Assembly (NCBI GenBank): GCA_029564595.1
Contig: JAKQPS010000018.1
Span: 15,920 to 79,919 of the forward strand
Direction of reading: 5' to 3'
DNA: 64,000 nucleotides
From: a bacterium
GTDB lineage: Bacteria > UBP15 > UBA6099
How positions within the stretch are numbered: the stretch's first letter is position 1; each line of letters begins with the position of its first letter. The notes below the pieces were generated by a model. That model searched no databases, was not told where the DNA came from, and worked only from the letters and a program-made list of their open reading frames with translations. The position numbers and the translations under genes were made by a program. Below, in pieces: positions 1 to 48,188 of this stretch.

Positions 1-1
1 G

Positions 2-229
2 TTCAACGAGGATGAATGTGAGATGAGCTTCAGCAGGGCGGAGAAGGAACGGTGCCGGATTATACGGGACTTCAATCGCATGTGCAAAGACCGAAAGATG
101 TACGTCAGTCTTGACACCCATTCTGGGTTGAAGACCATGAATCCCAGTTTCCCGATCAACTTCTGGTGGTACGAACCACAGCACCCGGATGATAAGGCGC
201 CCGTGAAGCAACGGCAGATAGATTGGTAA
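2..229 (+). CDS. Hypothetical protein, C-terminal part (cut by window edge)
   Basis: The reading frame is open from base 2 and ends with TAA at 227-229, so the gene probably starts before the window; an internal ATG lies at 23. Codons favour G or C at third positions, like the confirmed genes here, which supports real coding. The product is polar and basic and ends in a Trp-rich stretch (NFWWYEP) and a final IDW. I recognise no family. It lies in the accessory stretch left of the reverse transcriptase, but 1.5 kb of apparently empty DNA separates them, so a functional link is not indicated. Confidence 0.5.
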   Translation, partial: FNEDECEMSFSRAEKERCRIIRDFNRMCKDRKMYVSLDTHSGLKTMNPSFPINFWWYEPQHPDDKAPVKQRQIDW

Positions 230-579: not shown

Positions 580-600
580 CAGCCAATGATTCGAAAGATA

Positions 601-1685
601 CTAAAATAAACAATGATTACAGATATAACGTCGTCAAAATAAACTCAGAACTTAGGTTCATTTGTATAGCAAGAGCGTCTGGATTATCTTGCTTCATGAT
701 CGACATCAAATGATATATTTTTCAGCGAAAAATGTTTTTTTCGTCCTTCAAGGAGAGGGAGACACCATTTTCGGGTTGAAAAACGACCCCAAAATAACCA
801 CAATCTATGATGTATGATGATTACTATATCGATTATTAACAATATTTAAAGAAAAAGGCAGAATATGGTAGTAATACTAGACATAATGTCTAATAAACAT
901 TGTTAGTGTGTCATGGACTTTTCATTTTATATGTCGAGGTTGGTCGAATAACGAGATTGTCGTCAAGAAGGTCTGTCGTGGTCATATTAGGCCCAGATGC
1001 CTCGAATATTCGGCGCCGGCGTCGGTGCGTAGCGTGCGCGTTGAGGTCAGATTTGGTTCTGCGAGGACTAAACATCCTTCTGCCGACTTTATCAAGCCTC
1101 ACGCGCCGCTTCCGTGCCACCCTCTGTACACATGGCCCGGCTCGGCTAAATGCCCGGTCATATCGGGGTAATATTTATGAAGGTCGACAGGAAGATTGTG
1201 GGGCAACTTTTTATAAGTTGGCCACTCGACGGCTCAAAATCGAAAAAACATACTCCCTAAGCTTTTAGCAGCGCTGGGACACCTCATTTCGCCATTTTAC
1301 GCCGTTTTACAGGATTTCCGGGTCCAACGTAACAACAATCCTAGGAATCGCCTGTTTTTGATTGTTTTTCTTGTAAGGCATGAAAGATATCTTGCGTTAG
1401 TGCTCGTAACAGCGAGCTAATCTGGTATAATAACTTGTTTTAATCTATGATACATGATTAACAGCCATATACAGCTTTGTGTTCGTCGCCTTAAGAGGTT
1501 TTTGGATACAAAATGCTTTGGCCGCATGACTGCATAATCGCAGAAATATTTTGGAACTGAAAAACCAGATAAAAAATACGAGAAAACAGGAGTTTTTCGA
1601 GTCATGAAGGCCGAAGACCCTAGGACATCGCTACAACTAGCTTTAATCGTTATGTGATATGTTCCAAAACCCCCAAAATCGGCGG
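601..1685. other. AT-rich stretch without a credible gene
   Basis: About 1.1 kb in which the longest ORFs (near 900-1268 on plus and 1417-1692 on minus) show no ribosome binding site, no codon bias and low-complexity Arg-rich or scrambled translations. I see no RNA gene, insertion-sequence end or repeat here. It contrasts with the GC-rich, gene-dense rest of the window and may be degraded horizontally acquired DNA. Confidence 0.5.
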
Positions 1686-1713
1686 TTGACAAATCTCAGG
1701 ATTTTATTATCAT
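1686..1713 (+). promoter_or_regulatory. Sigma70-type promoter of the RT-associated ncRNA
   Basis: A perfect -35 box TTGACA (1686-1691) is followed after 16 nt by TATCAT (1708-1713, five of six consensus bases). Transcription would start near 1720, just before the structured region that ends in a terminator at 2039. It is one of the best promoter matches in the window and has no ORF immediately behind it, which argues for a non-coding transcript. Confidence 0.65.
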
Positions 1714-1719
1714 CAGAGC

Positions 1720-2035
1720 GAGGTGTTTTTTTTTAGAGGTGATCCTATCCGCACGGGCGCCAAAACCATCGCCCGACAGAACCGGCCGAGACACAAACCC
1801 TCGGGCAGATGAACACTGATAAGATGTATTATCAGGGTTTCCGGGCGTGGTGAGGATTGCATCTGTATATAGAGTGTGCGAGATAGGATGAGTGAAGATG
1901 GTCGCTCGTGTGGCTCACCTCATTCGTGAAGGCCCAGCGGGACCCTGAAGCAGCTTAGAAGAAAAAGGCCTTTCACTCATTCGGACTCGCACACTCGCTC
2001 CCAAACCTACGGAACGATCTGCCTTCCGTTTATTT
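1720..2035 (+). ncRNA. Structured non-coding RNA upstream of the reverse transcriptase
   Basis: The segment lies between a strong promoter and an intrinsic terminator and contains no credible ORF. Its 3' half folds into a long stem: GAGTGTGCGAG (1872-1882) pairs perfectly with CTCGCACACTC (1986-1996), then a 5x5 internal loop, then ATGAGTGAA (1888-1896) pairs perfectly with TTCACTCAT (1972-1980). About 75 nt with smaller hairpins lie inside. The 5' half has CGCCCG (1770-1775) with CGGGCG (1842-1847), AAACCC (1795-1800) with GGGTTT (1835-1840), and the hairpin CTGATAA/TTATCAG (1816-1822/1829-1835). Alternative pairs are possible there (GGGCG 1755-1759 with CGCCC 1770-1774; GCCCGA 1771-1776 with TCGGGC 1801-1806). 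Size and position match ncRNA templates of retrons and DRT-type reverse transcriptases. That role is inferred; boundaries are estimates. Confidence 0.65.
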
Positions 2036-2039
2036 TTTT
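2009..2039 (+). terminator. Intrinsic terminator between the ncRNA and the RT gene
   Basis: ACGGAA (2009-2014) pairs with TTCCGT (2024-2029) around a 9-nt loop, followed by a T-rich tract to 2039. The ATG of the reverse transcriptase begins at 2040. Most transcripts from the upstream promoter should stop here as a free RNA, and the RT would be translated from read-through RNA or from another start. No Shine-Dalgarno sequence fits between the hairpin and the ATG. Confidence 0.65.
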
Positions 2040-3254
2040 ATGATACAACAGATAGCTTCCTCAGAGAATATTCAAGAAGCCTTTGCTCATGTTAAGAATA
2101 GAGCGCGCGATGTCGATCAAGGAGCTGGTGTAGATAACATAACCGTCGCGATGTTCGCTAAGCGATACACACTTTACGCAACGCAGATTCAGCGCGATCT
2201 TTTGTCCATGGCATATGAACCTAGTCCCGTTAGGCAGTTCCCAGTGGACAAGGCAACAGGCCTGCCTGTTCGGATTCCAATAATCGAAGCAAGCGAGCGT
2301 GACGATTGCCGCATTTTGGGGATTCCAACAGTTTTTGATCGTGTAGTCAGTACAGCTATTCTATCGATAATCGAACCGATATTCGAGGTATTGTTTGAGG
2401 ACTCCGTCCACGGATTCCGACCAACTCGGGGCCAGATCACAGCACTTAATCGGATTTGCTCATTTTTAAAACAAGGAATCATCAATATATTCGAGACAGA
2501 TATTGAAAGTTGCTTCCCAAGAATTCAGCATAGACTTCTACTCGAAAAAGTCTCTGCGACGACCTCAGACCCGGACTTAATCGAGCTGATCAGACGCATT
2601 ATCAGAGCGCCTATTGATACTTGTCCAAACGAACCGAACATATGCGGTCTCCATCAAGGCGGGAACATATCGCCGTTCCTATGCAATGTTTATCTGACCG
2701 ATTATGACCGAACAATGGCTGCAGCCGGTTTGAAAAATATCAGATATGCCGATGACATCATTTGTTTTTGTCATACGAAAGAGGAAGCGAAACAGGCAGA
2801 AGCGTTGTCTGAAAAGACGCTAGCGCCATTGGGCATGAATCATAAAGCAAAAAAGACAAACCAAGTTTCAGCCTACGAAGGATTCGTCTTTCTCGGCTAT
2901 GACATCAAGCTCATTGACGATGTAACAATAATGATAAAAGCCTCTGAAAAAGCTATAGTTAAACTGAACTTCAAAATCGACGAGGCACTCAAGGAATCCT
3001 CTTCTTCTAGCGCCCGAGATTGTGTCGAAGCTGTAAAAAATGTTGTCTCAGGTTGGTTAGGACATTACGGCGCAATCAATGACTCCGGGCAGATTCGGGA
3101 CATCAACGAGCAAATATCACTATCGATAAAACGCGGGATGAGTCGATACAATTACAGTGCAGTAGAACGCGGAGATGTAGCCGTGCCGAATATAGCTAGA
3201 ATGATAGCGGCGATTAAATATCGCAGAAAGCTCAGTAGCTTCCACCAAGAGTAA
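2040..3254 (+). CDS. Reverse transcriptase, group II-like/DRT-like, preceded by a structured ncRNA
   Basis: A 404-residue stand-alone RT. The fingers/palm blocks are in order: an N-terminal GAGVDNITV block (about 28-36), HGFRP (124-128), the metal-binding FETDIESCF (151-159, catalytic Asp154), HQGGNISP (205-212), the active site YADD (236-239) and FLGY (284-287). The C-terminal GWLGHYG (338-344) recalls the maturase X/thumb region of group II intron proteins. No D or En endonuclease domain follows, and I find no intron domain V downstream. Retron markers (NxxxH, VTG) and the DGR-type SQ motif are absent. The start has no visible ribosome binding site and sits on the terminator T-tract; the RT fold begins almost at residue 1, so no N-terminus seems missing. 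The gene may belong to an ncRNA-templated system such as a defence RT (DRT), but this is inferred from layout. Confidence 0.85.
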   Translation: MIQQIASSENIQEAFAHVKNRARDVDQGAGVDNITVAMFAKRYTLYATQIQRDLLSMAYEPSPVRQFPVDKATGLPVRIPIIEASERDDCRILGIPTVFDRVVSTAILSIIEPIFEVLFEDSVHGFRPTRGQITALNRICSFLKQGIINIFETDIESCFPRIQHRLLLEKVSATTSDPDLIELIRRIIRAPIDTCPNEPNICGLHQGGNISPFLCNVYLTDYDRTMAAAGLKNIRYADDIICFCHTKEEAKQAEALSEKTLAPLGMNHKAKKTNQVSAYEGFVFLGYDIKLIDDVTIMIKASEKAIVKLNFKIDEALKESSSSSARDCVEAVKNVVSGWLGHYGAINDSGQIRDINEQISLSIKRGMSRYNYSAVERGDVAVPNIARMIAAIKYRRKLSSFHQE

Positions 3255-3692: not shown

Positions 3693-3961
3693 AACAAAAA
3701 AGGCGGCGTCAACGAAGCAGTTCGCCGCTGTGAAAACCGCCCCTGTTCGTCGGCTCTATCGACGAATCCGGGTTTATCGTCTCACGATAGAGATACGCTT
3801 TGAGCTTTATGCTTTAATGAATCCGAACCGGCATTGATTGCCTAACTGAAAGCATCCCGGTTGAAATTTATTAAAATGCTTGATAATTCTTCGCCCGTTA
3901 GAGTAAAGTAGTCTAGCCGGAGCGACCCGGCAGGTTATTAATAGATTACTTTCAGAGATTT

Positions 3962-47100: not shown

Positions 47101-48188
47101 AATGTTTATCCTTTTCAAATTTAAACGTAATCTCGGCAGGATACTCACATTCATGTGCAATCCACACGAACGGAACCGTCAAATGCTGGGGAGATAATAG
47201 CTATGGTCAACTTGGCGACGGCTCGACGACGAATTCATTGGTGCCTGTAACAGTAACAGGCATTTCTAACGCCGTATCCGTTGATGTAGGTTTTTATAAT
47301 CACACCTGCGCGGTTCTTTCAGACGGACAGGTCAAATGCTGGGGATATAATGGACATGGTATACTTGGCGACGGCACGACAACAAGTTCATACATGCCCG
47401 TGACCGTAACAGGCATTTCTAACGCCTCATCCGTTTCAGCAGGCGGAAATCACACCTGTGCGGTTCTTTCAGACGGACAGATCAAATGCTGGGGAAATAA
47501 TTCAAATGGTCAATTTGGAGACGGCACGACGACGGCTTCATCCGTGCCCATAGCTGTAACTGGCATTTCTAACGCTTCATCCGTTTCAGCAGGTGATCTT
47601 TACACCTGCGCGGTTCTTTCAGACGGACAGATCAAATGCTGGGGATGGAATGATTTCGGTCAACTTGGCGACGGCACTACGACGGATTCACTCGTGCCTA
47701 TATCCGTAACAGGCATTTCTAACGCCGTATCCGTTGCGGTAGGAAACGGTTATTTACCACATTATACTCACACCTGCGCGGTTCTTTCAGACGGACAGGT
47801 CAGATGCTGGGGGAATGGTGGCTATGGTCAACTTGGGAACGGCACGACAACCGATTCATCCGTGCCTGTAGCCGCAACAGGTGTTTCAACCGCAGTATCC
47901 GTTGATGTAGGTTTTTATCACACCTGCGCGGTTCTTTCAGACGGACAGGTCAAATGCTGGGGATATAATATGTATGGTCTGCTTGGGAACGGCACGACGA
48001 TAAGTTCAAAAGTGCCTTTATATGGAACAGGCATTTATAATGCCATATCCATTTCGGTAGGAGGCGATCACACCTGCTCTGCTCTTTCAGATGGTCTGGT
48101 TAAATGCTGGGGAAATAACAGCAGTGGTCAACTTGGCAACGGCACAACGACGGATTCGCTCGTGCCTGTATTAGTCAACCCGTTCTAG
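44112..48188 (+). CDS. Large RCC1/PKD/Cys-rich surface lipoprotein
   Basis: 1358 residues from ATG 44112 (GAGGT upstream). A longer upstream frame to 43914 crosses non-coding sequence and is rejected. The signal peptide ends at LILAAAGC and is followed by a GGGGG stretch, a lipoprotein type. Next comes a carboxypeptidase-regulatory module (VIGYVYDGDGRPVSGVRA), later a PKD-like domain (GSESSDLDGDPLTFDWEQ, about 720-800) and a run of Cys-rich repeats built on DCDDSDPxTxDxC (about 805-1005). The last 345 residues hold seven RCC1-type blades, each with HTCAVLSDGQxKCWG and GQLGDGTTT, a complete seven-bladed propeller. It is probably anchored at the cell surface with an adhesive role. Confidence 0.85.
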   Translation: MNKSRMICAGLLCLILAAAGCGGGGGRGTLLPSQPGAPAANKLSRVIGYVYDGDGRPVSGVRAQSVTTARGVRVAAAGGGASAVSDANGMFYFSVSSSPAENERIVLKLSKGGYVDNHVVYRVRYSAVENEDLLMPVRMLRAPGSESPETATVAEVRRANGTTAIFTPTIVTDPDSGLPVARTVVTIEDDIQEVSFKLPSPANTNVSSVTFTIGGAVSAGRSAGRVLGSEGGSIQVTGSLFYGDPTDPKALEVFPGEFLTKDNVPSSAARRTAGSGGGGEGVLVTAGFTQIKLTDSSGDEITSFADGAEVGVVMRVPDGVFNPDTGATVAEGDNVPIFTYDEAAGEWKVEYNSNGTIKRGTVMRDTDGLYVPFTTDHLSWFNLDWKGLRCPDGHPAIKAVDDTGAYLTSFSVSTLHSDSAFWTYPMQTNDGIAEFMSAPADIPWSIRVWAEGFYSDTVSMIGCNDVTIPMHRLNGTRVYANATCGGRAYSDVNIYAYKENIRVGSQKALHGTASLLLPPNTEVTIYGISTDSCKDIKSDLLTTTNAYTAQSVQLLFDNACCPTNSYDEPLRVSGLTPAKAIGVNPEASVNGTIVFSKPVMYPIFFDMPLTITLKQGADTILDNVAASTLGTVSWPDASVGTAQTLSFTVARADDIQAGKTYSFTVGLAPSYIIADDGAELELSSYLSSTSGVVSYTAASVTGSFSTVSDGTNRLPEPVPGPDKDAGIGALVTLDGSESSDLDGDPLTFDWEQVSGPSVVISNSTSAVATFTPSTAGVYVFKLTVNDGNGGIVSAQTTATVCNIFCGTNADCDDSDPLTSDVCENPNTCSAECSNTTCSAECSSDSDCDDSDPNTVDECSAPGTCEAACVNCIPACENNSQCNDSDPLTFDTCENTNTCAASCVNTPIECNTDTDCYGGTPACINGGLLSSDCVVCVNNSHCDDSAPLTWDVCENQGQINAYCSNTPCEAACYSASDCNDGNPDTNDMCFAPASCEAECLSFSNLNVISAGYSHSCAIHTNGTVKCWGDNSYGQLGDGSTTNSLVPVTVTGISNAVSVDVGFYNHTCAVLSDGQVKCWGYNGHGILGDGTTTSSYMPVTVTGISNASSVSAGGNHTCAVLSDGQIKCWGNNSNGQFGDGTTTASSVPIAVTGISNASSVSAGDLYTCAVLSDGQIKCWGWNDFGQLGDGTTTDSLVPISVTGISNAVSVAVGNGYLPHYTHTCAVLSDGQVRCWGNGGYGQLGNGTTTDSSVPVAATGVSTAVSVDVGFYHTCAVLSDGQVKCWGYNMYGLLGNGTTISSKVPLYGTGIYNAISISVGGDHTCSALSDGLVKCWGNNSSGQLGNGTTTDSLVPVLVNPF

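Follow-up and report, generated by a model that had tools for sequence, protein, structure and literature searches.

A free-standing group II-lineage reverse transcriptase preceded by a putative self-terminated two-domain RNA suggests a so far undescribed ncRNA-linked system

The cassette and its genomic setting

The window, by which we mean the whole 64,000-nucleotide stretch of DNA analysed, contains a cassette that runs from a promoter through a folded untranslated stretch and a terminator to a reverse transcriptase (RT) gene, with every element at the coordinates that an earlier note on this DNA had claimed for it (Table 1). The promoter is the top-ranked of 14 sites within 5 kb, where shuffles lead one to expect 6.4. 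The terminator hairpin occupies 2009-2029 and has a 9-nt loop, for which reason it was missed by the standard terminator scan, where loops of only 3-8 are allowed; a hairpin scan recovered it, together with a T-rich tract reaching 2039. Among the ATGs of the window or of the contig that holds the homologue described below, only 0.9-1.6% have a terminator-like hairpin equally near. The RT open reading frame that follows is intact. On reading the sequence of both loci, no ribosome-binding site is evident between terminator and ATG for either RT gene.

Table 1 Features of the cassette and its surroundings, in window coordinates.
Feature	Position	Strand	Basis
DUF3800 gene, 3' end (C157:15198-16148), last of the DrmD-like helicase/Mod/Res/DUF3800 cluster	1-229	+	
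Putative sigma-70-like promoter for the ncRNA, TTGACA-16-TATCAT	1686-1713	+	Consensus scan, 11/12 positions
Putative structured ncRNA, ends paired GAGCG/CGCTC	1716-2000	+	MFE z; closing stem mean P 0.8
U9 run that separates domain I from the closing stem; not conserved in the homologue	1726-1734	+	Sequence; homopolymer scan
ncRNA domain I, 132 nt (putative)	1734-1865	+	Pair probabilities; z -3.7; domain comparison with homologue
ncRNA domain II, single long hairpin (putative)	1872-1996	+	Pair probabilities 0.92-0.94; z -4.5
Intrinsic terminator with stem ACGGAA/TTCCGT; the T-rich tract after it abuts the RT ATG	2009-2039	+	Hairpin scan
Reverse transcriptase, 404 aa, group II-like	2040-3254	+	ORF translation, profiles, structure matches, alignment, tree
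RT motifs: motif A DIESCFP; HQGG; YADD	2499-2519; 2652-2663; 2745-2756	+	
Right edge of island; from 3864 on, sister genomes G003 and G002 are syntenic again	3863-3864		blastn vs sister contigs

The cassette lies in a genomic island. Everything from the contig start to window position 3863 is missing at the corresponding place in the sister genomes G003 and G002 (blastn), and none of the three genomes of the same genus has the RT. To the left of the cassette, the island carries genes for a DrmD-like SNF2 helicase, a type III Mod, a type III Res and a DUF3800 protein (C157, locus L027, 6033-16148, ending at window 229), which possibly form a single defence system of their own. The same island also holds, in a row, genes of the PD-(D/E)XK nuclease, ADP-ribosylglycohydrolase, ARPP-1 and FGE-sulfatase types (L027 2260-5872).

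The ~1.4 kb upstream of the promoter (window 600-1680) is without convincing genes. Two more locally stable folds occur there, at z about -3.6 (130-nt window from 991) and about -3.8 (130-nt window from 1511), and an Rfam match to EGFOA-assoc-1 at 1398-1621 was judged to be due to chance (20 bits against a gathering threshold of 224.5). Also in the gene-poor stretch ahead of the cassette, 68 bp at 516-583 share 88% identity with C157:14933-15000, at the 3' end of the gene for type III Res, and are apparently a decayed partial duplicate. Beyond the RT gene, the palindrome-rich segment 3547-3777 has a 90% identical copy elsewhere near the same locus in G002 (L039 3446-3677) and looks like a dispersed repeat. 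Much further along, at ~47300-47940, 22-mers are repeated at least three times at spacings that are multiples of ~150 bases; this may be a repeat protein gene.

The reverse transcriptase

The best NCBIfam model for the RT is TIGR04416 (group II RT/maturase), which aligns from residue 9 to residue 365, in the thumb/X region, with a score of 244 bits against a cut-off of 300. The homologous RT likewise remains below this cut-off (236.5 bits), and seven other group II-like RTs score 369-450 bits. The nearest solved structures are those of group II intron RTs, with G2L4 far weaker; an AlphaFold model made from a six-row alignment has a mean pLDDT of 52.6 and was set aside. The YADD motif is intact. 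In the alignment both RTs carry HQG and CFP, in contrast to PQG and F(Y/F)D or the like at these positions in the group II RTs examined, and the maturase domain PF08388 is absent from the window RT and below cut-off in its homologue.

In a tree that took in retron, DGR-like and group II RTs plus one DRT2 RT, the window RT and its homologue form a fully supported pair (100/100) that falls outside the retron and DGR-like clades (100/99 each). A long stem (1.27) leads to the pair on the group II side; within that side, supported as a clade at 49/32, the placement of the pair is unsettled. The earlier note had read the protein as carrying group II-like motifs and an X-like C-terminus unlike those of retrons, and this description is borne out by the profile and the tree, with an X region that is degenerate.

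We detected no Rfam match to group II RNA domains (D1-D4, DV) at E values up to 10 around the window RT or its homologue. With the same library, most of the intron RTs examined do show D1-D4 or DV. The window RT is therefore a free-standing enzyme of group II lineage with no intron around it; an intron boundary enclosing the ORF, which the earlier note had named as evidence that would speak against its reading, was found at neither locus. One could still suppose a group II intron, degenerate or of an unusual type, with an RNA too diverged to be recognised, given that group II RT/maturases are nearest by both profile and solved structures. However, the missing RNA domains, the absence or sub-threshold score of PF08388 and the position of the RNA upstream of the gene, enclosed by promoter and terminator, all argue against an intron of this kind, and we judge it very improbable.

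Assignments to other known classes were tried and rejected. The retron model scores 37.7 bits against a cut-off of 235, and the Drt2 model 43.5 bits against 390. The Drt9 model, at 68 bits, scores under what ordinary group II RTs obtain. The PADLOC model for UG17/DRT10 gives 130 bits, a match we regard as generic because ordinary group II intron RTs score higher (159-168 bits), and there is no SLATT gene beside the RT: its annotated neighbours are the DUF3800 gene and a thiolase-like gene, with no notable ORF between. For a diversity-generating retroelement, the motif is HQGG..SP rather than an SQ-type motif 4, and no template/variable-type repeat pair was found around the RT. For a CRISPR-associated RT, no cas1 was found among the island proteins scanned and no array-like repeats in the island, where the sole CRISPR-type trace is a PD-(D/E)XK protein that weakly matches Cas4, ~13 kb from the RT. 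Separately, L003 (1-2454, minus strand) encodes an RT fused to TPR-like repeats and to a further region that is possibly primase-like, preceded by a Cas6-like ORF, all named by sequence reading.

The upstream RNA

The region between promoter and terminator is predicted to fold strongly. The stretch 1715-2045 has a minimum free energy of -116 kcal/mol (z -2.9), equalled by none of 100 shuffles, and 1720-2009 has a z of -3.9, with 1 of 200 shuffles as good. Each half stands out by itself against dinucleotide shuffles, with 1733-1868 at z -3.7 and 1868-2003 at z -4.5 (0 of 200 as good in each case). In the predicted structure the whole RNA is closed by a rather weak 5-bp stem (1716-1720/1996-2000), within which lie two domains. 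The second of these begins with an 11-bp helix (1872-1882/1986-1996) and continues with one of 12 bp (1886-1897/1971-1982) that contains 9 consecutive Watson-Crick pairs. These are the 11-bp and 9-bp stems that the earlier note had described as closing the RNA: both exist, but they close its 3' half only. The RNA has stop codons in every sense frame.

The main rival explanation takes up this layout, in which promoter, leader, terminator and gene are ordered as in an attenuated gene. The RNA would then be a structured 5' leader whose attenuator limits RT expression, and the RT a free-standing enzyme with a host role, for example in break repair in the manner of G2L4, that needs no dedicated RNA; intron-less group II-like RTs domesticated for DNA repair are already known (PMC12337344). 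However, ~290 nt in two closed domains is large for such a leader, and neither a leader peptide nor a known riboswitch is evident in it. The RT also has none of the YIDD, AQG and RT3a insertion of G2L4, and its patchy occurrence in islands does not fit a host repair enzyme. We hold this explanation to be possible, if on the unlikely side.

The homologous locus

A single homologous RT, 52% identical, was found on contig C160 of genome G005 (JAJRTR010000182.1, MAG Dive96_bin1.91), from the same order as the window genome, in a sparsely sampled phylum for which seven genomes were covered. No homologue beyond this pair came from searches, by protein or pair profile, of viral collections, GTDB, plasmids, phages and several hundred genomes; because GTDB was scanned only once, with two N-terminal patterns, more distant members may have been missed.

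The upstream DNA of the two loci shares no sequence similarity. An alignment of the RNA cores is no better than shuffles, and one 5' match between the upstream regions is equalled in 48 of 500 shuffles and conflicts with the structural correspondence. The layout, in contrast to the sequence, is repeated in the same order at the homologue: an end-closing stem, a first domain, a second domain, a terminator and the RT ATG, with an extended -10 element, TGCTATAAT, ~390 nt upstream of the RT. The end-closing stem (CGCAAG/CTTGCG) adjoins the terminator on its upstream side; the first domain, from -294 to -163, is exactly 132 nt long, as is domain I in the window; the terminator is an 8-bp hairpin followed by a pyrimidine-rich tract up to the ATG; and the second domain and terminator lie at matching distances from the ATG at the two loci. 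Among 1000 shuffles of the homologue, 3.0% had a closing stem with a first-level domain of 126-138 nt and 1.4% had both of these adjacent. The closing stem of the homologue has a mean probability of 0.57 in a trimmed fold and changes with the ends chosen for the stretch to be folded. For this reason, and because the criteria were set after the window fold had been seen, we treat the match between the two folds as supportive and not conclusive. Homologous RTs lacking any conserved upstream RNA had been named in advance as evidence against the system, and the sole homologue instead repeats the arrangement of ncRNA, terminator and RT.

A template signature common to both RNAs was sought among U-tracts, endless ORFs and repeats, and none was found. 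A DRT9-like U-tract template is represented by the U9 run in the window only. A DRT2-like endless ORF is precluded by the stops in the window, and one open frame of 90 codons occurs at the homologue locus (L002) only. For a DRT10-like A-B-A' template, the candidate repeats are ACTCGC (period 8) in the window and, in L002, GTAGGAG (period 13), located between the domains; they are not common to the two loci and are possible by chance. The cDNA product is thus not predictable, since no DRT-type template signature is shared.

The homologue adjoins genes for an HTH_17 (excisionase-like) protein and a tyrosine integrase at a tRNA-Ala, with a restriction-helicase ORF some 9 kb away (HsdR-like by sequence reading). 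An ADP-ribosylglycohydrolase-like ORF, also named by sequence reading, lies near it as well (L025 3504-4649). These integrase and excisionase-like genes, along with the absence of the window island from sister genomes, might indicate that the RT has its role in moving an integrative element and not in defence. However, at the window copy the 20 kb to the left of the island edge showed no recognisable integrase, a tyrosine integrase does not require an RT, and the same kind of island also carries defence genes. We consider a role in mobility improbable.

Proposed system

We infer from the two loci that the RT partners with the upstream RNA. This pairing is favoured by the strong local fold, the terminator abutting the RT ATG at both loci and the repeated architecture, and a system of this type is further favoured by an RT that is intact and 52% identical between loci, the lack of intron RNA and the island settings. 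Against it count that there are two members only, with RNAs that do not align, that they share no template signature and that neither gene has an evident ribosome-binding site. On balance, we see about an even chance that the cassette is a two-component system in which a domesticated RT of group II lineage works with a separate ncRNA, some 290-320 nt long, that is probably its template or scaffold, and in which the two probably act in defence. The idea of an ncRNA-dependent, perhaps defensive RT put forward in the earlier note is in part upheld, by an intron-free group II-like RT in a defence-type island and by a layout repeated at its sole homologue.

In the system we propose, the promoter would produce the ncRNA, ending at the terminator directly ahead of the RT gene, and read-through past this terminator would supply the RT mRNA. 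The RT would bind the folded ncRNA as a scaffold and probably use it as a cDNA template, as in DRT2, DRT9, DRT10 or retrons. The resulting cDNA or ribonucleoprotein would probably act against phages, by analogy with DRT2, DRT9 and DRT10 (PMC12483538, PMC12632851), and the system would travel in defence or integrative islands. More tentatively, it may represent a class of domesticated group II-lineage RTs templated by a self-terminated two-domain ncRNA, antiviral or cDNA-producing; such a class, which we likewise offer with reserve, would make DNA from ncRNA templates along a path separate from those of UG/DRT enzymes and retrons. As the cassette is small (~1.6 kb) and self-contained, it is directly testable in E. 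coli, and if the proposal is true it adds a new RT-RNA pair in which to look for unusual cDNA products.

Comparison with known systems

The ncRNA-templated defence RTs in the literature considered belong to the UG group or to retrons. DRT2, DRT9 and DRT10 combine a UG-group RT with an upstream ncRNA, whereas the RT described here is on the group II side, has no SLATT or other partner gene and shares none of the U-tract, endless ORF or repeat templates with its homologue. Retrons, which pair an msr-msd RNA with an RT, resemble the cassette in having an RNA closed by its own ends, with a long hairpin inside, directly upstream of the RT; they differ in that the present RT is outside their clade, a terminator separates RNA and RT gene and the end pairing is weak.

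G2L4 and other free-standing group II-like RTs share with the window RT a group II-like enzyme without intron RNA. G2L4 has YIDD, AQG and a 9-aa RT3a insertion, and no ncRNA has been reported for it (PMC12337344), whereas the window RT has YADD and HQG and shows no insertion in the alignment; among the G2L classes, this comparison covers G2L4 alone. Group II intron RT/maturases are similar in giving the best profile match, from RT0 to thumb/X, and in their YADD, and dissimilar in that the window RT scores below the family cut-off, has HQG and CFP motifs, sits on a long branch and is without intron RNA. The cassette is therefore best described as a candidate variant among the ncRNA-linked RT systems that is not DRT10, a retron, G2L4 or a group II intron, and it suggests a system, not described before, whose RNA serves an enzyme that makes DNA. 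If this is true, an RT of group II lineage with a stand-alone ncRNA in place of its intron would illustrate the step from a self-splicing element towards RNA-directed cellular DNA synthesis.
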